30,726 bases of DNA, taken from assembly GCA_030698575.1 (NCBI GenBank), contig JAUYMQ010000256.1, positions 1 to 30,726 on the forward strand, given 5' to 3'. The notes below the pieces were generated by a model. The model was not told where the DNA came from, did not search any database, and saw nothing but the letters and a program-made list of their open reading frames with translations. Origin of the DNA: Deltaproteobacteria bacterium. Lineage in GTDB: Bacteria > JAUYMQ01. Below, one piece after another: positions 2,667 to 23,752 of this stretch (position 1 is the stretch's first letter; each line of letters begins with the position of its first letter). The translations under genes were made by a program, and so were the position numbers.

Positions 2667-3507
2667 GCGTCGCGGTTGACCGCTGCTGCATCACGCCGCC
2701 CCGCTCAACTGTTGTCGTCCGGACCAGTTCCTTCCCCTTATGGGCAACGAAAAACCTGACGCGGTTGACCTCGGCGTCGTCGCCGCCGAAGCACTGATGG
2801 ATGGCCGCGAGAAATCGAACGTCTGCCAGATGGTGCGGCTCCGGGTTGGGGTTGTTTCGGACGCTCGGAATGGTCGCAGGGAACAGGTAGATGCATGGGG
2901 GCGTGAGGAGATACGGTCCCACTTCTGTTTGACGCCCCTCGCGGAGGGCCAGCTTCGGACAGGGACGCGCCACCGTCCCGCAGAGCCAATCCCACACGAC
3001 CAGCCCGTCCACCTGCTTTTCGTTCGCAATGATCTCTGCGCTCAACCGTGTGTGAATGCCAGACCAGACGTTCCGCCGAGGATCGCCGCCCGGGTTTTCG
3101 CAAATACTCCACAGAATGAACTCCTGGGCGTGGGCTGGGCGCTCGAAGATCGTCGTGTTGTTACCATCGAGGCAGCCCTTAAGCTCAATGACGCACACAC
3201 GGCCATCGGGAAGGGTGACGGTGTAGTCGTGCCTGTTCGCGCCGCCGGACGATTCCCAATTGTAAATAAGCGCACGGTCCTGCATATGGTTCAGGACCAA
3301 CCGCACGAAGTCGCGCTTCGGGTTCATCGTCGCAGCGAACTGCCCGCGGAGACGTTCAATCACGCCACGAAACAGGCCGCCTTGGTAGAAATCCCTCTCG
3401 GACAGGCCATGAGTGCCGAGCGTGTGAGCCTCGGTCCGAAACACCTCGGCCAACTCGACGATTTGCTTCTTGAGATCCTTGTTCCGCTGGCAGGGAATGA
3501 CGCTCAT
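2650..3507 (-). CDS. Putative type II restriction endonuclease (PD-(D/E)XK)
   Basis: A 285-residue protein encoded directly downstream of the cytosine methyltransferase. Its ATG overlaps the methyltransferase stop (ATGA), so the two are translationally coupled. Around residues 94-110, HDYTVTLPDGRVCVIELKG fits the D...ExK nuclease signature (Asp94 or Asp101, Glu108, Lys110). Position and motif argue that it cleaves the site protected by the methyltransferase. I do not recognise its recognition sequence or named subfamily. No frameshift or stop is visible. Confidence 0.75.
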   Translation of the reverse strand: MSVIPCQRNKDLKKQIVELAEVFRTEAHTLGTHGLSERDFYQGGLFRGVIERLRGQFAATMNPKRDFVRLVLNHMQDRALIYNWESSGGANRHDYTVTLPDGRVCVIELKGCLDGNNTTIFERPAHAQEFILWSICENPGGDPRRNVWSGIHTRLSAEIIANEKQVDGLVVWDWLCGTVARPCPKLALREGRQTEVGPYLLTPPCIYLFPATIPSVRNNPNPEPHHLADVRFLAAIHQCFGGDDAEVNRVRFFVAHKGKELVRTTTVERGGVMQQRSTATPIRRR

Positions 3508-4751
3508 GCGACCAGGTGAATCACTGTCGCTTTCGGTGCCAAGATCGGTTCGAGGATTTGATCGGCTAAGTGCCGAACGACCGGGAGAACCACACCGTCG
3601 CCCGTGAGGTGATACGCCTCGTTGTAGTTCTCTGGCAAAGCGTAGCTGTCGGGCAAGCCCATCAAGCGGGCTGTCTCTCGACTAGAGAGCAAGCGCGAGC
3701 GCACCTTCTCGCCTTTCACGACGACGATTAATTGTCGGCTGGACCCGCCCGACGACGTGCGGAGACAGCCCGCCACCCCGTCAAATCGGACTTCGGCCCG
3801 CTGCACCTTATCCCCGTCATCGTCATGGCGGGTGCGCTTGTAGACAGTACCGACCGTGAGCTTGCCCGCCTTCTTCGCGTCACGGACCTTGTCCATGTTG
3901 CGCTTGTTCATCATGCCGAGGAGTTTGGCCGTTTCGTCCCGCGTGTGCCACGCAACGCTCGACGGTTCATCCTCAATGAGGTCCTTCAACCGAATCGTGC
4001 GCCGCGCGGGGGCGGCCATATTCCACCACACCCAATGCTGGCGCGTTTCCTCGTCCAGCCGGCCGTGCGCCGTGCGCAGTGCGCGCGAATGCCAGCGGGC
4101 CGTTGGCTCCGCCGCGACCAGAGCGGGCGGTATGGCAAGGTCGCCCGCCACGGCCACGATGAACAAGCGCGGCCGTGACTGCGGGACGAAGAGGGCGGCG
4201 TCAATTACCAGTGCGCCGAAGTGGTAACCGGCATCCGCGAGCGCCTTGGCGATGGCGGTGAAGTCCTTCCCGCCGTGCGACGTGAGCGTACCGCACACAT
4301 TTTCCAAGGCGACGACGCGAGGACCGCGACCCGCGCCGCTCAGTTTGGTGACCAGCTCCCAAAACGGCCAAAACGTCCCGGACCGGTCGCCCTTCAACCC
4401 CGCTCCCATGCCAGCCAGCGAGAGGTCCTGGCACGGGAAGGACGCCCAAGCCAAGTCCGCGGAATCCCGAACCTCGGCGGCCTCAACGGTGCGCACGTCC
4501 TTCGTGAGAAGCGCGCCATCTCCCCAGTTCTGCCGGTAGATCGCGCTCTTCTTGAAGTCGAAATCATTGGCAAAGACGCAGCGCCATTGAGGACCGAGGC
4601 CAGCCCGGACCATGCCGCCGCCGGCAAAGAACTCAGAGAACGTGAACTGGTGGGCTTGGGCGGGAGCTAGTTCATGCGTGCTTGCAGTCACGGGCACCCC
4701 GAAGTCGAAAGTCACCGCTTTGGTGGCGCTAAGATACCACGAATCAGGCAC
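3504..4751 (-). CDS. DNA (cytosine-5) methyltransferase
   Basis: Transfers methyl from S-adenosylmethionine to cytosine C5. In order along 415 residues: motif [17 protein letters not shown] (38-53), motif IV with the catalytic cysteine [11 protein letters not shown] (Cys107), motif VI ALENVCG (Glu150), motif [13 protein letters not shown] (191-199), a target-recognition stretch of about 150 residues, motif IX around [15 protein letters not shown], and motif X with [17 protein letters not shown]. All catalytic motifs are intact. The start is GTG at 4751; a shorter start is possible because the first 35 residues are not conserved motif sequence. The target site cannot be read from sequence. It leads a two-gene operon with the putative restriction enzyme. 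Confidence 0.93.
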
Positions 4752-4813
4752 TTACGCAATGCCCGGACGACGATTGACAGGCCGAACCGGCCCGCCTAGC
4801 TTCGGGTCCTATT

Positions 4814-4840
4814 CGGGGGTGGCCTTGCCTATGCGTGAGC
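4814..4840 (+). repeat. Possible degenerate internal left end of the IS
   Basis: GGGGGTGGCCTTGCCTATGC lies about 50 bases before the transposase start, where a simple IS1-like element would begin. About 18 of 28 positions can be aligned with the outer left end, including GTGGCC, AT and CGTGA. The match is weak enough to be chance. If real, the insertion sequence alone is about 910 bp and the outer end at 1434 belongs to a second copy or a recruited boundary. Confidence 0.25.
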
Positions 4841-4863
4841 GTTTGAGTAGATTGCCTGTTACA

Positions 4864-5712
4864 ATGAACGTCCTCACGACTGCTAAACGCGCCGCGATAC
4901 TGGCGGCCCTCTGTGAAGGCTCCTCCGTCCGGGCAACCGCTCGGATCGTCCGCGTGTCGCGGACCACGGTCCTCAAGCTGCTGGTTGAAGTCGGGAAACT
5001 GTGCGCGATCTATCAGGACCACACGCTGCGCAATCTGCCAGCGAAGCGGCTGGAGATTGACGAGTTGTGGGCGTTCGTCGGCGCGAAGGCGCGGCGGGCC
5101 ACGCAGCCGGGCCATGGCGATATCTGGACGTTCACGGCCATTGACCCCGACTCGAAGCTGCTGGTCTCATGGCTAGTGGGAAATCGGACGCCGGAAGCTG
5201 CTGGCGAGTTCATGCGCGACGTAGCGTCGCGGCTCGCCAACCGCGTACAGGTAACCACGGACGGCCACCACATGTACCTGACCGCCGTGACGCAGGCTTT
5301 CCACTTCGACGTGGATTACGCCATGCTGGTGAAGCGGTACGGGCAGGCCGTGGGCGACGATACGAAGTACAGCCCGCCCGTGTGCGTCGGGGCGGACAAG
5401 ACGTGGGTCAGCGGGAAGCCGGCCAGGGCGTTTGTGTCCACGTCCTACGTCGAGCGGTCCAACCTTACGGTGCGGATGCAGTCGCGCCGCTACACCCGAC
5501 TCACCAATGCGTTCAGCAAGAAGGTCGAGAATCACGCCCACGCCTTCGCCTTGTTCGCCATGCACTACAACTACTGCCGGGTCCACCAGACGTTGACCAA
5601 GCAGGTGGGCGGGATTCACACCACGCCAGCGATGGCGGCGGGGGTGACGGATCGGGTCTGGCGGGTGGAGGACATAATCTCCCTGCTGGACCCCGCTCGG
5701 CTGTTACAATGA
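4864..5712 (+). CDS. IS1-family DDE transposase
   Basis: A 282-residue transposase. The N-terminal half has a helix-turn-helix ([20 protein letters not shown]). The catalytic core shows [14 protein letters not shown] (first Asp), [11 protein letters not shown] (second Asp) and [15 protein letters not shown] (Glu), then [17 protein letters not shown] and a C-terminal NYCRVHQTL. This matches the single-frame IS1-like transposases. I start at ATG 4864 ([13 protein letters not shown]); the open frame extends back to 4612 but that part lies antisense to the methyltransferase and shows no domain. The stop TGA at 5710 is inside the right inverted repeat. Confidence 0.92.
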
Positions 5713-16289: not shown

Positions 16290-17816
16290 CTAGTCTGCCC
16301 CGCGGACGAGCGCCTTCAGTGCCAGTCGTTCGGGGGCCGAGGCGAATCCGTACATGATGGTGAACGCTACGATCGATCCACCCAGGCCAACGGCGAATCG
16401 TACCGCAATCGGCAGGGCGTTGCCGGCTGGCAGCAAAGCCGCGACGAACACGGTGCCGCCGCAGGCAAGGCCTGAGCGGCCGACAGTCGCAAGTGGGATA
16501 GACACACGAAACAGATGCCAGATTTGTAAGGCGCGGACGCCGTTCAGGAGTACCACAGCACCGGTGTACGCCAATGCAACGCCAAGAAGGCCGAAGTGCC
16601 AGCCCAGGAGGGTTCCGCCGATCGCCGTTAGGCCCAGGGCGACGGCGTTGTTGGCCAGAGCCAGGTAACTCCGACCTGAGAGTGGCAGGAAGTCTTCGGC
16701 GAGCGCAGTCGCCGAGTTCGCCCACTGGCCGACCGCGAGGACGCCCATGAGGGCGGCTCCGCGGACGAATTCTCCACCAAACAGGGCGAGAATCCCGGGC
16801 GCGGCCAGGACCAACCCCACGAGGAACGGCCCGTTGAACCACAGCACCGACGTAACCACCCTGTCATACATCGCCTGCAGAGCATCGTGTTGGTTGGGAT
16901 TCTCGAGAAGTCGGGGGATACGCGGCAGAAACGGTGTCGCGTACGCGAGCTGAATCCACGACGCCAACATCACGACTCGGGTCGCGGCCGCGAGGAGCCC
17001 GGCGTCGCTTGGTGAGCCAACGGACCCTGCTACCGTCAGGGCTCCAAACATCATCGCGGTCTGCAGCGCGGCGGATATCGTCGTGAGGCTGCTGAACGTG
17101 ATCACCTTCAGATGCTCGCCGGGTGCGGCAACGTGAGCTGGAAGCCCTCGGAGCGAGTGTTGCAGGAGAACGATCGTGGTTCCAAGTGAGGCCACCCCTC
17201 CAAGGATGAAAGCCGACATGCCCCACCACCACGGGCCCCCGAGGATGACGGCGGCGCCCAACGTCACAAGTCGCACCAACGGATCGAGCAATGTCACGAC
17301 TAACGCGTAGGCCCCGAAACGATCTTGCCGCTGCAGGCCTGCGCCGAGGGGAAAGAGAAGCGTGGCTGGTGGGACGGCAGCCGCTGCCAGACCGAACGCG
17401 ATCAGCGGCGCCGCGTTCTGCTGCCCCTGTGCGAAGAAGGTGCCCCAGCTGGCGAGGGCCAGGGCAGCCGCGAGGCCTCCCAACAAGGACAGTGTCGTGC
17501 CTCTTACAAGATGATCCTCGTCGTGACCCCGCAACACGACGGTATCACCGGCTGCCCGCCCCAGCATGGTGGCGGTCTGCATGCCAGCCTGGGCTGTGTT
17601 GCAGAGGCCAAAGATGCTCACGCCGTACGCGCGGGCGAGCAGCCACTGGAACGCGAACAGTACGGCAGAGCGAGCCACCGTTATGAGGAACTGGAGCCGG
17701 GCGGTTGAGGCGATCGACGCGCGGGCGCGCTCTTCCAGCGGCAGAGGTGCGGGCACGAACCGAAAAGGTAACCGTGACGTGCCTTGCGGCAATGCCGTCG
17801 GTCGTTGTTTGAGCAC
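16290..17816 (-). CDS. Lipid-linked oligosaccharide flippase (Wzx-like, MOP superfamily)
   Basis: A very hydrophobic protein with roughly twelve to fourteen membrane helices over about 450 residues (for example FLITVARSAVLFAFQWLLAR, LGGLAAALALASW, LAVGQWANSATAL). It would move completed undecaprenyl-linked repeat units across the inner membrane for Wzy. The start is uncertain. I use GTG 17816; a GTG at 17756 is equally possible. The open frame extends to 18002 but overlaps the divergent ATP-sulfurylase-like gene. It forms an operon with the GT2 gene downstream. Confidence 0.87.
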   Translation of the reverse strand: MLKQRPTALPQGTSRLPFRFVPAPLPLEERARASIASTARLQFLITVARSAVLFAFQWLLARAYGVSIFGLCNTAQAGMQTATMLGRAAGDTVVLRGHDEDHLVRGTTLSLLGGLAAALALASWGTFFAQGQQNAAPLIAFGLAAAAVPPATLLFPLGAGLQRQDRFGAYALVVTLLDPLVRLVTLGAAVILGGPWWWGMSAFILGGVASLGTTIVLLQHSLRGLPAHVAAPGEHLKVITFSSLTTISAALQTAMMFGALTVAGSVGSPSDAGLLAAATRVVMLASWIQLAYATPFLPRIPRLLENPNQHDALQAMYDRVVTSVLWFNGPFLVGLVLAAPGILALFGGEFVRGAALMGVLAVGQWANSATALAEDFLPLSGRSYLALANNAVALGLTAIGGTLLGWHFGLLGVALAYTGAVVLLNGVRALQIWHLFRVSIPLATVGRSGLACGGTVFVAALLPAGNALPIAVRFAVGLGGSIVAFTIMYGFASAPERLALKALVRGAD

Positions 17817-17868
17817 GTTGTGGATGGTATCTTGCGGTCCCTGCTGCGAGACTGTCGAGGGAGCTGCG

Positions 17869-19023
17869 TTGATACGACCGCACGGCGGTACGCTAATCGA
17901 TTGCACGGTGACTGCGGCCGCGCGCGCTGAGGTCGAGCGCCTCGCGGACGAAGCGCCACGCCTCCCCGTGGATCGCTTCACTGCCATGGACGCCCTGAAC
18001 ATCGCGATCGGCGCCTATAGTCCGCTGCGCGGCTTCATGGCGGAGGCAGACTACCTGAGCGTTATCCGGCAAAGCGCGCTGGCAGCCGGCTCCACGTGGA
18101 CCGTGCCCGTCCTCCTCCACGTCCCGGCAGGCATGGCGACCAAACTCCGCCCCGACGGCCGACTCACTCTCGTGGACAGCGAAGCACAGCCGTTTGCCCT
18201 CGTACAGGTGGAGTCGGTTTTCGAGGTCGCGAAGCGCGAGTACGCCAAGCTGGTGTTCGGGACCGCCGACCAGAGCCACCCCGGAGTGGATCGTCTCACC
18301 TCACTGCCGAGCACCTGCGTCGGCGGCGCGCTCACACTGCTCCGCGAACCGGAGCTCGAGAACCGACAGTATTTCATCCGCCCGAGCGAGACGCGCAAGC
18401 TGTTCGCCGAAAGAGAATGGAAATCCGTGGCGGCATTCCATACCCGCAACGTTCCCGACCGGGCTCACGAGTACCTCCAAAAGCTGGCGCTTGAGTCTGC
18501 GGACGGGCTATTCGTGCATCCCATCGTCGGCTGGAAGAAAGCGGGCGACTTCTCCCAGCGCGCCCAGTTTGAGACGTACGAGGCGCTGTTCGAGCATTAC
18601 TATCCACGCGACCGGGTGCTGCTCGGTGGCTTCTACTGCCAGGTGCGCTACGCGGGGCCGCGCGAAGCGGTGTTCCACGCCATCGTGCGGCAGAACTTTG
18701 GTTGCTCCCACATCATCATTGGACGCGATCACGCCGGGGTGGGGCGGTTCTACGGTGTGTACGATGCGCATCGTGCGTTCGACGCCGTGAGCGATCTTGA
18801 GATCGTGCCGCTTCGCTTCGCGGGACCGTTCTACTGCCGCCGCTGCGGCGGGATCGTCACCGACCGTACCTGCCCGCACGGCGGCGACGACGTGAGCGAG
18901 ATCTCCGGCACACTCGTGCGCAAGCACGTTGTGAACCGGGAAGCCGTGCCCGAATACCTGCTCCGTCCCGAAGTGTTCGACGTGCTGGAGCGACTGGCCA
19001 CCGAGGAGGCGTTCGTCCGATGA
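17869..19023 (+). CDS. ATP sulfurylase (Sat)-like protein with substituted active-site residues
   Basis: Canonical Sat makes adenylyl sulfate from ATP and sulfate. The 384-residue product has the full architecture: N-terminal IRPHGGTLI, a PUA-like first domain, the catalytic domain with IIIGRDHAGVGRFYG (285-299), and a C-terminal zinc-type FYCRRCGG...TCPH and ISGTLVR. However, the ATP-binding motif usually written QTRNxxHRAHE reads HTRNVPDRAHE here: Gln is His191 and the first His of HxxH is Asp197, while Arg193, Asn194 and His200 remain. Canonical activity is therefore doubtful. The start TTG at 17869 follows GAGGGAG. No APS kinase or sulfotransferase is nearby. It leads a three-gene operon. 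Confidence 0.85.
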   Translation: MIRPHGGTLIDCTVTAAARAEVERLADEAPRLPVDRFTAMDALNIAIGAYSPLRGFMAEADYLSVIRQSALAAGSTWTVPVLLHVPAGMATKLRPDGRLTLVDSEAQPFALVQVESVFEVAKREYAKLVFGTADQSHPGVDRLTSLPSTCVGGALTLLREPELENRQYFIRPSETRKLFAEREWKSVAAFHTRNVPDRAHEYLQKLALESADGLFVHPIVGWKKAGDFSQRAQFETYEALFEHYYPRDRVLLGGFYCQVRYAGPREAVFHAIVRQNFGCSHIIIGRDHAGVGRFYGVYDAHRAFDAVSDLEIVPLRFAGPFYCRRCGGIVTDRTCPHGGDDVSEISGTLVRKHVVNREAVPEYLLRPEVFDVLERLATEEAFVR

Positions 19024-19745
19024 CCGGCGTTCTCTGTACGATCAGTCCTCAGAACGGTCTCGTCCCCGGAGCGGACATGGTCCGCTGGAACGGAGCCTTC
19101 GGGAATCCGATGGAGGTACAGCGCTATTTCGACCGGCTGGCGGTGCCTCGGCTGCTCGATTTGCCGGGCGCCCGTAGTAAGCCACGCACGAGTACCATCA
19201 GCGACGACGAGTGGCTCGAATTCGCGCAGAGCACGGCGTACGAGTACGTGGGGCTCTCCTATGTCAAGTCGGCGGACTGGATCTTTGACGTCAAAGGCCG
19301 CCTACGGGGGAGTCGGACCGGTGTGATCGCCAAGATCGAGACGCGCGAGGCGGTGGACAACATCGAATCGATCGTGGAGGCGAGCGACGGCGTCATGATC
19401 GATCGCGGTGACCTCAGTCGCGCGATTGGCGTGCTCGCCCTCGGCGCGGTCCAAAAGCGTGTGGCCCAGTCGTGTCGGCGAGGGGGGAAAGTGCTGATCG
19501 TTGCGACGGGCGTATTCGCCTCGATGCGGGCAGACGATCAGCCAGGTATCTCAGAGGTAAGCGACGCCTTCAATGCCGTGTTGGACGGCGCGGATTACCT
19601 GATGCTGGCGGAGGAAACGGCGATCGGAAAGCATCCGGAGCTCGTTGTCGCGGCGCTGCGGAAGGTTGTGGACGCCGCGGTTTCCTACCAGGCGCTGACG
19701 ACAGCCGAGCCGGAGGAAGGCGGCCACCTGCGGAGCCTGGCCTAG
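19020..19745 (+). CDS. Minimal pyruvate-kinase-like barrel protein
   Basis: A 241-residue protein matching the central barrel of pyruvate kinase: GVIAKIETREAVDNIESI (Lys105, Glu107), ASDGVMIDRGDL (Asp131), VATGVFASM (Thr163, where the family has ATQMLxSM) and AVLDGADYLMLAEETAIGKHP. The B domain is missing (LLDLPGARSKP joins straight on to the barrel) and the C-terminal regulatory domain is absent. The N-terminal RLNFSHG is replaced by RWNGAFG. It is thus about half the usual length, but internally intact. Its ATG overlaps the Sat-like stop (ATGA), implying coupled production and perhaps a complex. The reaction is unknown. Confidence 0.75.
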   Translation: MTGVLCTISPQNGLVPGADMVRWNGAFGNPMEVQRYFDRLAVPRLLDLPGARSKPRTSTISDDEWLEFAQSTAYEYVGLSYVKSADWIFDVKGRLRGSRTGVIAKIETREAVDNIESIVEASDGVMIDRGDLSRAIGVLALGAVQKRVAQSCRRGGKVLIVATGVFASMRADDQPGISEVSDAFNAVLDGADYLMLAEETAIGKHPELVVAALRKVVDAAVSYQALTTAEPEEGGHLRSLA

Positions 19746-19751
19746 CTGGTC

Positions 19752-20273
19752 GTGCGCCGGATCTTGCGGTGGGTTCGTGGACTCCCCGCGCTGCGGTCGC
19801 TGTGGTTGGTGTGGCTTCGGATCCGCAACGAGGCGCCTAACCGGTGCCCCGTGGAGGTGGAGCCGGGGGTTTTCATCGGAGGGATTTGGACCGCGCGGCG
19901 GTGGCGGGCGCTCAGGGCGGTCGGCGTCAGGAGGGTCCTTGCGCTCACGGCCGAAGCCTGGTCCGATGCGTGGTTCGCCGATGCGGAGACCATCCTTTGG
20001 CTGCCGGTTCCTGACACGGAAGCCCCGTCGGCTGACCAACTGCGTGAAGGGTGCGCGTTTCTGGATGCGGCACGCGCTCAAGGGCAGGCCGTGATAATCG
20101 TTTGCGGTTCGGGGATCGGCCGAGCGCCCACCATGTACCTGGCGTGGGCGTTGCGTCGTGACGCTCAGGACGTCGCTCGTGGGATGGAAATCGTACGCAG
20201 TGCTCGCCCGATCATCGACCTATCACGGGCCCAGCGGGAGGGGTTGAGGTCCTGGCTGACAGCGGGGCGCTAG
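19752..20273 (+). CDS. Dual-specificity/tyrosine phosphatase-like protein
   Basis: A 173-residue protein. The phosphatase P-loop CX5R appears as VCGSGIGRAPT (Cys118, Arg124); the usual His before the Cys is Val117. A candidate general acid lies in PVPDTEAP (Asp88). The family segment VEPGVFIGGIWTARRWRAL precedes. A hydrophobic basic N-terminus (LRSLWLVWLRIR) may contact the membrane. The start GTG at 19752 is six bases after the PK-like stop, completing the operon. It converges with wzy, overlapping by four bases. It could dephosphorylate a protein, lipid or sugar phosphate. Confidence 0.78.
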   Translation: MRRILRWVRGLPALRSLWLVWLRIRNEAPNRCPVEVEPGVFIGGIWTARRWRALRAVGVRRVLALTAEAWSDAWFADAETILWLPVPDTEAPSADQLREGCAFLDAARAQGQAVIIVCGSGIGRAPTMYLAWALRRDAQDVARGMEIVRSARPIIDLSRAQREGLRSWLTAGR

Positions 20274-21592
20274 GAGGAGTGTCGGGCGAGCAGGTGGGAG
20301 GGTCGCGCAGAGATACAGAACGCAACGGTGAAGAACACGCCGCCAATCAGTGAGAACCAAATCGTTCGGCTCGGGTCACCTACCCGCGTGAAGTCGAAGA
20401 TGAAGAAACAGAAGGCCAAGTACAGGGTTGCATCCCCAACTCCCCGGCGGTGCTGGCGCCACTCCCAACCGATTCGTCCAAACCACCCGAGCCCGAAGAA
20501 CCCGAGCACTACCGCGAACGGTCCGCCTGCGGCGTACAGTTCGCCTATCGCCATTGGTGGATAGCCCGTGCGACCGAGCTCCGGTAGATAGCGAGACACG
20601 ATGACCTCGCCCAAGGTAACCGGCTTGTCTGTCCAGATCCGCCTGGGGATAATCATCCAGGGAACGCGGACGAATGTCACCCCGTGGTTGAGTGGCAGTT
20701 CCTGTGGAACGTCTCGCACGACGATCGTGGCGGCGTCGAAGATCTTGAGTTCGCCCGTCGCACTGAACGCAAAGTGCACGGCGGCCTGCGGTTGCCTGAG
20801 AAAGACTTGCACGGCTCGTACGAGACGCTCGGGACCGAGCAACCGAATGAAGTTGTAGGAGAAGAGGAGCGTGCCCAGGGCCAACAAGCCGAATAGCATT
20901 CTAGCCACGCGGATTGGTCGGATCGTGAGGTGATACAGCACAATCGGGTATGCGATGGCGAGGACCAGGAATGAGCGACGCCCAAGTGGAAACAGAGCTA
21001 ATGCGGTTGCGAACGCCGCTACCCAGACCCACGACCGCGTTCGGCCTCTGACGGGGTCCACGAGCAGTAATGCCGTAGGAACCATCAACAGTCGTGCAAG
21101 TTGAAACAGGGGCTGCTTGCCCTGTAGCCGAAAACCGAGTTCGACCTGGTGGCCAAGCGCATAGACCAGGCCCCCTCCTGCGTGGAGCAGCAAGGCCAAC
21201 GCCAATACACCGATGGCGCCCAAGCCGCCGGCGATCCAAATCGCTCGCACGGGATCAGGGTTAGGGAGCGTGAACCGAAGCCGCTGCGCGACTGCTTTCG
21301 CCGATCGTGCGCCGTGACCAGCTACGAAGGCGAGCACTCCTGCGGTTGACAGGGCGACGGTCTCTCCGATGAGCGCTGTCTGGTCGTTGAGCGTGAGCGC
21401 CCCAGACGTGAGTGGGGCACGACCAAACCATAAGAGGTAGGCTGCGCGCGGCAGCACGTAGAGGCCGATGACTCCCAGGCAGATCGGGAGGGGAGCAACG
21501 AGCTCGCCTCTTCGTCGGAGCCAAAACCAGAAGGCACCGAGGATTGTGAGCGCGAGCAAGCCCCAGCTGATCCAGGCGATCGCCTGGGTCAC
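20270..21592 (-). CDS. wzy: O-antigen/exopolysaccharide polymerase (Wzy-like)
   Basis: A 440-residue membrane protein with about ten hydrophobic helices and large periplasmic loops, the layout of Wzy polymerases that join lipid-linked repeat units. Features include ALFPLGRRSFLVLAIAYPIV, a long loop around IWTDKPVTLGEVIVSRYLPE, and AIGELYAAGGPFAVVLGFFG, typical of the oligosaccharide repeat unit polymerase group. I use GTG 21592, which overlaps the wzz stop as GTGA; the open frame to 21703 lies inside wzz. Last gene of the rfbA operon. Wzy proteins are poorly conserved, so the call rests on topology and context. Confidence 0.82.
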   Translation of the reverse strand: MTQAIAWISWGLLALTILGAFWFWLRRRGELVAPLPICLGVIGLYVLPRAAYLLWFGRAPLTSGALTLNDQTALIGETVALSTAGVLAFVAGHGARSAKAVAQRLRFTLPNPDPVRAIWIAGGLGAIGVLALALLLHAGGGLVYALGHQVELGFRLQGKQPLFQLARLLMVPTALLLVDPVRGRTRSWVWVAAFATALALFPLGRRSFLVLAIAYPIVLYHLTIRPIRVARMLFGLLALGTLLFSYNFIRLLGPERLVRAVQVFLRQPQAAVHFAFSATGELKIFDAATIVVRDVPQELPLNHGVTFVRVPWMIIPRRIWTDKPVTLGEVIVSRYLPELGRTGYPPMAIGELYAAGGPFAVVLGFFGLGWFGRIGWEWRQHRRGVGDATLYLAFCFFIFDFTRVGDPSRTIWFSLIGGVFFTVAFCISARPSHLLARHSS

Positions 21593-22527
21593 GACCCGCG
21601 ACCCCGCGGTAGTAATAGAGGAGACAACACATAGATCCAAGCCGCCATAATCGTGAACGCACCGATCCCGGAGAACAGGGCCCAGACCGACGCCCGCGGC
21701 CACACCTTCTTGGGACTCGCTTGCGGCGGCTGAATCAGCGAGATCGACGGCGTGTTCCGCACTTCTCGCAGCTTTGCCGCCTGCGCCTGATTCGTCAGCG
21801 CGAGAAACACATCCTGCCGGATCTGGATCTGGCGCCGCAGGCGCGCATCCTCAAACTGGAGGGCAGGGGAAGACGCGATGCTGCGGTTTGCGCTCAAGAA
21901 GTCGCGATGCTGATTCTCGGCAGCCCGCAGCGCCCCCTGCGCGCTGTCGGCCTGTGCTTCCGCGAACCGACGTTCCGCTGACCCGCCCGAGCGAATGCTA
22001 GCCGTCGTCACGGTGTTCAATGCCTCGAGCACCGCGGCCGTGAGCGCGGCCGCCGTCGCGGGCGAAGGAGCCCGCGTCCGCAAAGTCACGAGATCGGCCT
22101 GGTCATCAGTTCGCACGATGAGCTTGTCCTTCAACCGGCGAATCCCTTTCTCGATGCTCTGCGCGGTCGTGTCGTCGACGTCCAGCAACGCGAGCACGGG
22201 TACCCGTTGACCGTCCGCCTCGAGCGTATCGCTCGCCACCAGACGCAACACCTCGCGCGATTGCGCCACCTGCGCGAAGTAATAGACGTTGTAACCCTTG
22301 GTGCCGGCGCTCACGCCAAATTGGGCGGCGATGGACTGGAGATTGCCCGGCAACGTCGGACTGACATCCTCGGCCGGACTGAAAATCGCCACGCCCTCGT
22401 ACTGCTTGGGCACGACGAAGGTCAGGAGTACCCCAACAACCGCGGCGAGCAGCGGCAGCGCGATCAGCGCACGCCAGCGCCGCATCAGCTCCTGCACGCC
22501 GTCGCGCAGCGGATTCGGATCGTCCAT
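21589..22527 (-). CDS. wzz: Polysaccharide chain-length regulator (Wzz-like)
   Basis: Controls polymer length together with Wzy. The 312-residue protein has the expected topology: a short cytoplasmic start, membrane helix 1 (ALIALPLLAAVVGVLLTFVV), a large periplasmic coiled-coil domain, the proline-rich QPPQASPKKVWPRA, and membrane helix 2 (GIGAFTIMAAWIYVLSPLLL). No tyrosine-kinase domain is fused. ATG 22527 (MDDPNPLRDG) is chosen over the longer frame because it sits four bases after the lhgO stop. Confidence 0.86.
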   Translation of the reverse strand: MDDPNPLRDGVQELMRRWRALIALPLLAAVVGVLLTFVVPKQYEGVAIFSPAEDVSPTLPGNLQSIAAQFGVSAGTKGYNVYYFAQVAQSREVLRLVASDTLEADGQRVPVLALLDVDDTTAQSIEKGIRRLKDKLIVRTDDQADLVTLRTRAPSPATAAALTAAVLEALNTVTTASIRSGGSAERRFAEAQADSAQGALRAAENQHRDFLSANRSIASSPALQFEDARLRRQIQIRQDVFLALTNQAQAAKLREVRNTPSISLIQPPQASPKKVWPRASVWALFSGIGAFTIMAAWIYVLSPLLLPRGRGS

Positions 22528-22531
22528 GGGA

Positions 22532-23752
22532 TCAGCCGGCACGGCCAAGTAACGCCTCCCCACCCAGTTTCCGGTGACACTCGCCCGCCAAATGCTCCCC
22601 GAACGGCAAGCTGCACGTCAAACCCGGCGACACCGCATTGAGCACGTGCACCGTCCGCTCGGTCTCGCGTACGACGATGTCGTCCACCATGTGCCCATCC
22701 CGCGATACCACCGTCGCCCGATTTCCCGCAAACGAGCGGACCAGATCTGCACGCTCGAGCGCCGGAATCAAGAACCGCGCCTCCCGCCAAACCGCCCCGA
22801 GCGACAGGCTCTTGCGGACCTCGCTCACGACGAGTGAGCGAAACCGCGGCTCCCGAAACAGCCGGTAGAACCCCGGCCAAGATAGCGTGCCCGAGAGATC
22901 CCGCAGATTCATCTGGGCGAAGCGGTACGCTTCCCGCCCAAACGCGAGCATCGCCCCGGGACCCACGATCACCCGCCCATCCACGCGCCGGGAAAGGTGC
23001 ACTCCCAGAAACGGAAACGTGAGGTCCGGCACCGCATACACGTGGCTGCGAACCAGCCGTCGGCTGTCAGCCGTCAGTTCGGCGTAGTAACCACGAAACG
23101 GGATGATCCGCAGGTCCGCCGCCACCGCGCCCGCGATCCGGTCGGCGTGCAGCCCGGCGCAGTTCAAGAGGGCAGGGGCCGCCAGCGTTCCCCCCGAGGT
23201 GTCCACCTCGACCACGCGCCCTTCCCGGAAGCCCCGCACAGCCGTTCCATACCGGACCTGCACGCCCAACGCCTCGGCGTCCGCCAGCAGCGCGCGCACA
23301 TACGCCGGCGCGTCGAAGCTCGCTCCCTCAGGCGCGTGCAGCCCCTCGACACCCCGGGCATGCGCCTCGATCGCCGCGATGTCATCGCCGCTGACGATCC
23401 GGCTCTGCACGCCGTTGCCCTGCGCCCGCCGGTGCAGCTCGGCCAGCGTCGCCCGCTCGGCCTCCGTCCGAGCGACGATGAGAATCCCGCCCTCGTCCAC
23501 GGGAATGCCGCGCTCCCGGCAATAGGCGCGCAGCCGCCGGCTCCCCTCGACGCAATACTTTGCCTTCAGACTGCCTGGCTTGAGGTTGTAGCCGGAATGG
23601 ATGACGCCGCTGTTGCGGCCGCTCTGATGCTGTGCCGGCTGCGTTTCCTTCTCCACCACCAGGACCCGCGCGCCCAGCTTGGCCAGATGCAGCGCGGCGC
23701 TCGCGCCAATCGCCCCCGCGCCGATGACGATGACGTCGGGAGAAGCCGTCAG
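22532..23752 (-). CDS. lhgO: L-2-hydroxyglutarate oxidase-like FAD enzyme
   Basis: An FAD-dependent oxidoreductase of the DAO/LhgO group, about 406 residues. The dinucleotide loop VIVIGAGAIGASAALHLAKL is at the N-terminus, followed by QSGRNSGVIHSGYNLKPGSL (LhgO signature), LNCAGLHADRIAG, the substrate-side FRGYYAEL and the C-terminal HVLNAVSPGLTCSLPFGEHL. The conserved N-terminal fold has no ATG, GTG or TTG ahead of it in frame. The best start is CTG at 23752, which overlaps the rfbD stop as CTGA, like the other coupled junctions here. The first canonical start (23659) would delete the FAD loop. It may oxidise L-2-hydroxyglutarate or another 2-hydroxy acid. Confidence 0.85.
   Translation of the reverse strand: MTASPDVIVIGAGAIGASAALHLAKLGARVLVVEKETQPAQHQSGRNSGVIHSGYNLKPGSLKAKYCVEGSRRLRAYCRERGIPVDEGGILIVARTEAERATLAELHRRAQGNGVQSRIVSGDDIAAIEAHARGVEGLHAPEGASFDAPAYVRALLADAEALGVQVRYGTAVRGFREGRVVEVDTSGGTLAAPALLNCAGLHADRIAGAVAADLRIIPFRGYYAELTADSRRLVRSHVYAVPDLTFPFLGVHLSRRVDGRVIVGPGAMLAFGREAYRFAQMNLRDLSGTLSWPGFYRLFREPRFRSLVVSEVRKSLSLGAVWREARFLIPALERADLVRSFAGNRATVVSRDGHMVDDIVVRETERTVHVLNAVSPGLTCSLPFGEHLAGECHRKLGGEALLGRAG

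Follow-up and report, generated by a model that had tools for sequence, protein, structure and literature searches.

We found that a Sat-like gene and a pyruvate-kinase-like (PK-like) gene, lying next to each other in a 30,726-nucleotide stretch of DNA (the window, meaning the whole stretch that was analysed), belong to an association that is real and recurs near polysaccharide genes. We give a probability of about 0.6 to the reading that the pair is an unfused and divergent form of a PAPS-supply module that is widespread and has a PK-derived protein acting together with Sat and the APS kinase CysC; the PK would drive ADP-to-ATP recycling in intact members and would be a regulatory or scaffold protein without a B domain in the window. 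The coupling itself is seen as PK fused to Sat (type I), as PK fused to APS kinase (types I and II, type II being the unfused Sat-PK pair) and in CysC-Sat-PK operons. The natural PK-Sat fusions also lend weight to the Sat/PK complex that had been suggested in an earlier note on this DNA.

A coupled gene trio in a polysaccharide locus

The Sat-like ORF (positions 17869 to 19023, plus strand, 384 aa) has a TTG start at a conserved PHGG N-terminus. It overlaps by ATGA with the PK-like ORF (19020 to 19745, plus strand, 241 aa), and six bases past the PK-like stop the GTG start of a dual-specificity-type phosphatase ORF follows (19752 to 20273, plus strand, 173 aa), an arrangement that had been described correctly in the earlier note. 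All three frames are open and have a coding-like GC3 of 0.76-0.80. The trio is flanked by minus-strand genes: a divergent wzx-like flippase ORF (16290 to 18002), which matches Polysacc_synt_3 at 22.7 bits, slightly below the 23-bit cut-off, and whose true start probably lies below 17869; and, on the other side, wzy/wzz-like genes, beginning with a convergent wzy-like membrane protein ORF (20270 to 21703) that was assigned by its sequence character and for which the Pfam scan returned zero families. The Pfam families around the trio agree with its placement in a polysaccharide locus and include a Bac_transf priming transferase, glycosyltransferases, wzx- and wzz-like genes and dTDP-rhamnose genes. 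At the edge of this locus lie a C-5 cytosine DNA methylase gene and an IS1-like transposase ORF (3504-5712), and within it a DAO-family FAD-dependent oxidoreductase, which we take to resemble L-2-hydroxyglutarate oxidase, adjoins wzz (22532-23659). An Rfam scan of the window gave no matches.

The Sat-like identity was borne out by profile searches, in which both the catalytic domain (PF01747, 4.5e-80, 268.5 bits against a cut-off of 24.3) and PUA_2 (4.4e-40, 137.3 bits, cut-off 27) scored above their curated cut-offs, as did NF003166 (435.4 bits, cut-off 387) and TIGR00339 (328, cut-off 323). The closest solved structure is 8a8d, a Methanothermococcus enzyme (4e-102), and the window protein has the fold, the PUA domain and the TRN, GRDH and ISGT motifs in common with homo-oligomeric Sats of the 8a8d/1v47 type. 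Unlike these, it carries an altered active-site motif, seen in the sequence and in alignments at positions 18436 to 18471 of the plus strand (FHTRNVPDRAHE; canonical FQTRNPxHRAHE): the sulfate-binding Gln is replaced by His (HTRN), and the first His of HxxH is replaced by Asp (DRAH) with the second His retained. The GRDHAG loop (GRDHAGVG) and the remaining Sat motifs are intact. In the ATPS of A. vinosum (Allochromatium), the Gln of this motif binds the sulfate group of APS and HxxH lines the pyrophosphate region (PMC3779200). With these two active-site residues lost, the window Sat may have impaired activity.

The PK-like protein contains a PF00224 barrel (1.6e-34 in a profile search) and scores 152 bits against the TIGR01064 equivalog, below the cut-off of 306. 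Its AlphaFold2 model (pLDDT 90, pTM 0.88) is a complete eight-stranded barrel that superimposes on pyruvate kinases of the PDB with a Z of 31 and an rmsd of 1.4 over 217 residues. The description as a minimal pyruvate-kinase-like protein is apt: the A-domain barrel is complete, and domains B and C are missing. When the protein is aligned with PykF and type II PKs, the junction of B-domain loss falls between DLPGARSKPRT and STISDDEW (19170 to 19199, plus strand), and a low-confidence loop of the model, residues 54-56, lies at this junction. R32, N34, D66, K220, E222, D246 and T278 (E. coli PykF numbering) are retained in the alignment, and we take these to be the PEP/Mg residues; S36 and H37 are not retained, the ATP-binding H37 being replaced by Phe, and the B-domain lid is absent. 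The canonical ARGDLG of pyruvate kinases reads DRGDLS here (19401 to 19418, plus strand), as it does in the Sat- and CysC-linked PKs. Compared with pyruvate kinase (PykF, PKM; PF00224), the linked PKs share the A-domain barrel and the PEP/Mg residues but lack the C domain and carry DRGDLS, and the window copy lacks the B domain as well. That a B-less barrel can fold is illustrated by human liver PK with its B domain deleted (PDB 7qdn), which the window model matches, although 7qdn is engineered and not natural. Because the B domain and H37 are lost, phosphotransfer by the window protein is unlikely, and its PK activity is doubtful.

The third gene encodes a protein with the CGSGIGR loop (C-x5-R signature), which matches DSPc (1.8e-10; PF00782 41.2 bits, cut-off 33.5), PTP-SAK above its cut-off, and DSP structures. 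The loci related to the Sat/PK pair yielded no homologue of this phosphatase. Recurrence of the trio elsewhere thus holds for the pair, which is widespread, and fails for the phosphatase; conservation of the trio as a whole is ruled out and the phosphatase is no recurrent third partner, being by this comparison a local, window-specific addition.

Fusions, operons and the source genome

PK-Sat fusions were first seen in two genomes (G043 and G065) in a sample of other phyla. A pattern taken from PK (K-[IVM]-E, 20 residues, DRGDLSR) was then found in at least 117 stretches of the genome collection, from proteobacteria, planctomycetes, Chloroflexota, Omnitrophota, Elusimicrobiota, Actinomycetota, Thermoplasmata and others. 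Of these, 80 loci were fetched, and 36 of the 80 encode a PK-Sat fusion of about 730 aa, spread over many phyla; the others hold standalone or cut-off PKs and one unfused pair (L059). The fusion also occurs on Sinorhizobium and Ensifer plasmids. In 30/80 loci CysC is encoded on the same strand, and in 23/80 within 300 nt; L087 has PK and CysC in one ORF of type I, and a ranking of neighbour families by Pfam puts APS_kinase (18+6) and Sulfotransfer_3 (13+9) in the top two places. In phages, the PK part alone was matched, at less than 60% identity, among the matches listed, whose records carry no annotation.

The C domain is missing throughout the linked PKs, most of which keep the B domain, and their PK parts score under the NCBIfam PK cut-offs. 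Every linked PK that was seen has A243D, beside the PEP site, and those of types I and II have G248S too; the search pattern fixed K220, E222 and DRGDLSR, so that the conservation of these positions among type I proteins reflects how they were selected. The columns outside the pattern and the Sat signature are independent of that selection. Among these columns, R32, N34, S36, H37, D66, R73 and T278 are retained in 72-73 of 73 type I PKs, with the nucleotide-handling H37 and R73 in all 73, and the type I pocket carries N279. In the Sat partner, the site of the sulfate-binding Gln holds His in 37 of 38 PK-linked proteins, counting that of the window, whereas Gln is found there in 23 of 23 ordinary Sats.

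Type II comprises five relatives of the window: L059 came first, and four more emerged when 290 genomes from its phylum and 395 from a second phylum were searched. As in the window, where Sat lies directly upstream of PK on the same strand and is coupled to it, the stop and start of Sat and PK overlap by ATGA in L176, and an overlap is present in L178 too. L175 and L186 are CysC-Sat-PK operons, and L177 has Sat followed by a PK-CysC fusion (PF00224 1.5e-52, PF01583 3.9e-42) and a sulfotransferase, with a CysQ-like phosphatase nearby. CysC is therefore in the operon in 3/5 relatives, whereas in the window's genome it lies on another contig. The other type II Sats keep Gln and HxxH, and L059 has GRDQ for GRDH. 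In quick trees the window fell within type II and apart from the type I fusions (SH-aLRT 87 for Sat and 89 for PK, the PK placement being the weaker of the two because the window branch is long). The trees rule out a single clade of window and fusion Sats drawn from their common HTRN, and the His-for-Gln exchange in the two looks convergent. When 298 Gemmatimonadota genomes were searched for closer relatives, no more than two gave a match, in each case partial and near 1e-32, covering P0002 residues 45-217 within frames of 512-555 aa.

Several other genes were seen in these surveys. Komagataeibacter xylinus plasmid pA (L164:213-2055) encodes a 337-aa 'pyk' without a C domain, reading MIDRGDLA, that overlaps a sulfotransferase gene, and a K. 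saccharivorans plasmid (H62) likewise has a C-domain-less 'pyk' with a sulfotransferase; cultured bacteria, too, thus have a PK that is linked with sulfation. In Pelagibacter-type genomes, CysC and a DRGDLSR PK adjoin an HxGH nucleotidyltransferase of about 118 aa with the motifs GRFQPFHDGH and ISATNIRKK (L050:5563-5913, L068:5960-6313, L088:108-458, L079:1873-2229). No PF01747 Sat was found in the four Pelagibacter genomes searched, three of which have the HxGH gene, and one copy of the HxGH protein gave a weak PF01747 match (19.5 bits); the protein is a candidate minimal ATP sulfurylase in SAR11. TauE/SafE-like transporters, which may move sulfate or a sulfur oxyanion, also recur near PK genes (L033:12430-13167, L049:1056-1772, L178:8015-8746; PF01925 confirmed for L178).

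The window Sat is the only PF01747 protein of its genome. The earlier note had seen no APS kinase or sulfotransferase nearby, and the Pfam scans of window proteins gave neither; the genome does, however, encode an APS kinase (217 bits) in a second polysaccharide locus on contig C569. The further claim that ordinary sulfate activation does not explain these genes is not supported: CysC is present in the same genome and adjoins relatives in 23/80 type I loci, and CysC-Sat-PK operons, PK-CysC fusions (L177, L087) and frequent sulfotransferase neighbours speak against it. Sulfotransfer_3 has four matches in the genome, and no sulfotransferase-family gene lay near polysaccharide genes in the stretches read. 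PAPS-reductase/CysD (PF01507) was not found in this assembly and was present in 14/14 control genomes; at 91.6% completeness, absences from the assembly are provisional. Activated sulfate would then feed sulfation and not cysteine synthesis by the usual route. The 241-aa barrel is also the sole PF00224 match of the genome, and no canonical pyruvate kinase was found; either this gene is missing from the assembly or another PEP-to-pyruvate enzyme is used.

A proposed route to PAPS and its competitors

In the proposed mechanism, the module would make PAPS for the sulfation of a surface polysaccharide. The PK domain of intact members would use PEP to turn ADP from APS kinase into ATP on site, and this recycling would relieve product inhibition and pull the unfavourable sulfurylase step. 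It has been reported that human PAPSS1 in vitro yields almost no PAPS without recycling of ADP by PK and PEP, and much more with it (PMC9885120). In the window, Sat would make APS for the APS kinase encoded on C569, and the B-less PK, with its PEP/Mg site kept, would serve as a regulatory or scaffold subunit that binds PEP. Counting against the PAPS-supply reading, the residues lost from the window Sat, and the B domain and H37 lost from its PK, cast doubt on both activities; CysC and sulfotransferase are both missing from the window locus, and in the stretches read the sulfotransferase-family genes elsewhere in the genome did not lie near polysaccharide genes. In addition, the change from ARGDLG to DRGDLS (DRGDLA in Komagataeibacter) may mean that the reaction is not plain PEP plus ADP, because A243D and G248S lie beside the PEP site. 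A broader proposal, which we advance tentatively and at somewhat less than even odds, is that a PEP-driven PAPS synthase arose in bacteria and archaea, perhaps repeatedly, through fusion of a PK-derived domain to Sat or CysC, with on-site ADP recycling or a modified PEP reaction, and that the window would hold a reduced form with a B-less partner subunit.

Alternatively, the PK-like protein could be a PEP-sensing regulatory subunit and not a kinase, tying sulfate activation to carbon status. The window PK would suit such a role, having lost the B domain and H37 yet kept R32, N34, D66, K220, E222, D246 and T278; the C domain is missing from all linked PKs, and there is a precedent in fungi, whose ATP sulfurylase carries an APS-kinase-like domain that regulates it through a ligand of its own (PMC2275785). 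We nevertheless consider it unlikely for the family, as a pure sensor would have no need of the B domain that most members keep, nor of the H37 and R73 found in 73/73 type I proteins.

It is also conceivable, though distinctly improbable, that the window pair is decaying or consists of pseudoenzymes and that the locus no longer activates sulfate. Both proteins have lost normally conserved residues, the PK has lost a whole domain, and its branch is long. Against decay stand the three open, tightly coupled frames with their coding-like GC3, the intact remaining Sat motifs, the well-formed barrel of the PK model, and the position of this Sat as the only one in a genome that also has an APS kinase. 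Least probable is a non-PAPS product, in which a His-type Sat would adenylylate another anion or a phosphate ester and the altered PK barrel would catalyse a novel reaction of PEP, so that the polymer would be built from an activated donor of an unusual kind: the prevalence of His over Gln in PK-linked Sats and a PK pocket with D243, S248 and, in type I, N279 speak for it, but type II Sats except that of the window keep Gln with identical partners, and PAPS is the product to be expected from neighbours such as APS kinase, sulfotransferase and the CysQ-like protein.

Known systems and what the coupling would mean

The PAPS-supply reading has partial parallels. Bifunctional Sat/APS kinases and PAPS synthases (2gks, PAPSS1/2; NF004040) likewise couple Sat and CysC for PAPS, but they have no PK part, and in type II CysC is instead separate or fused to PK. 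In the Sat-pyrophosphatase fusion of stramenopiles and haptophytes (Patron et al. 2008, PMC2275785) a helper also pulls the unfavourable sulfurylase step; there it removes pyrophosphate, whereas the bacterial and archaeal helper described here is a barrel derived from PK and is linked to CysC too. The open-access literature, in which absence is not proof, held accounts of PK recycling in vitro and of other Sat fusions only and none of a natural coupling of PK to Sat or APS kinase, in keeping with the earlier note, in which the set was not recognised as a known pathway. NCBIfam and Pfam describe the separate parts only.

Sulfation needs PAPS, whose synthesis is energetically poor and product-inhibited. 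If the PAPS-supply reading is true, PK coupling would be a third drive for this synthesis beside the fused pyrophosphatase and GTP hydrolysis by CysDN. It would occur across many phyla yet escape notice in databases, where its proteins are called 'pyruvate kinase' and 'sulfate adenylyltransferase'. Counting linked PKs as glycolytic, or linked Sats as sulfur assimilation, would then be misleading annotation. The pairing would furthermore allow sulfated surface polysaccharides to be recognised from the genomes of uncultured microbes, and would offer a ready-made enzyme for PAPS-dependent biocatalysis.
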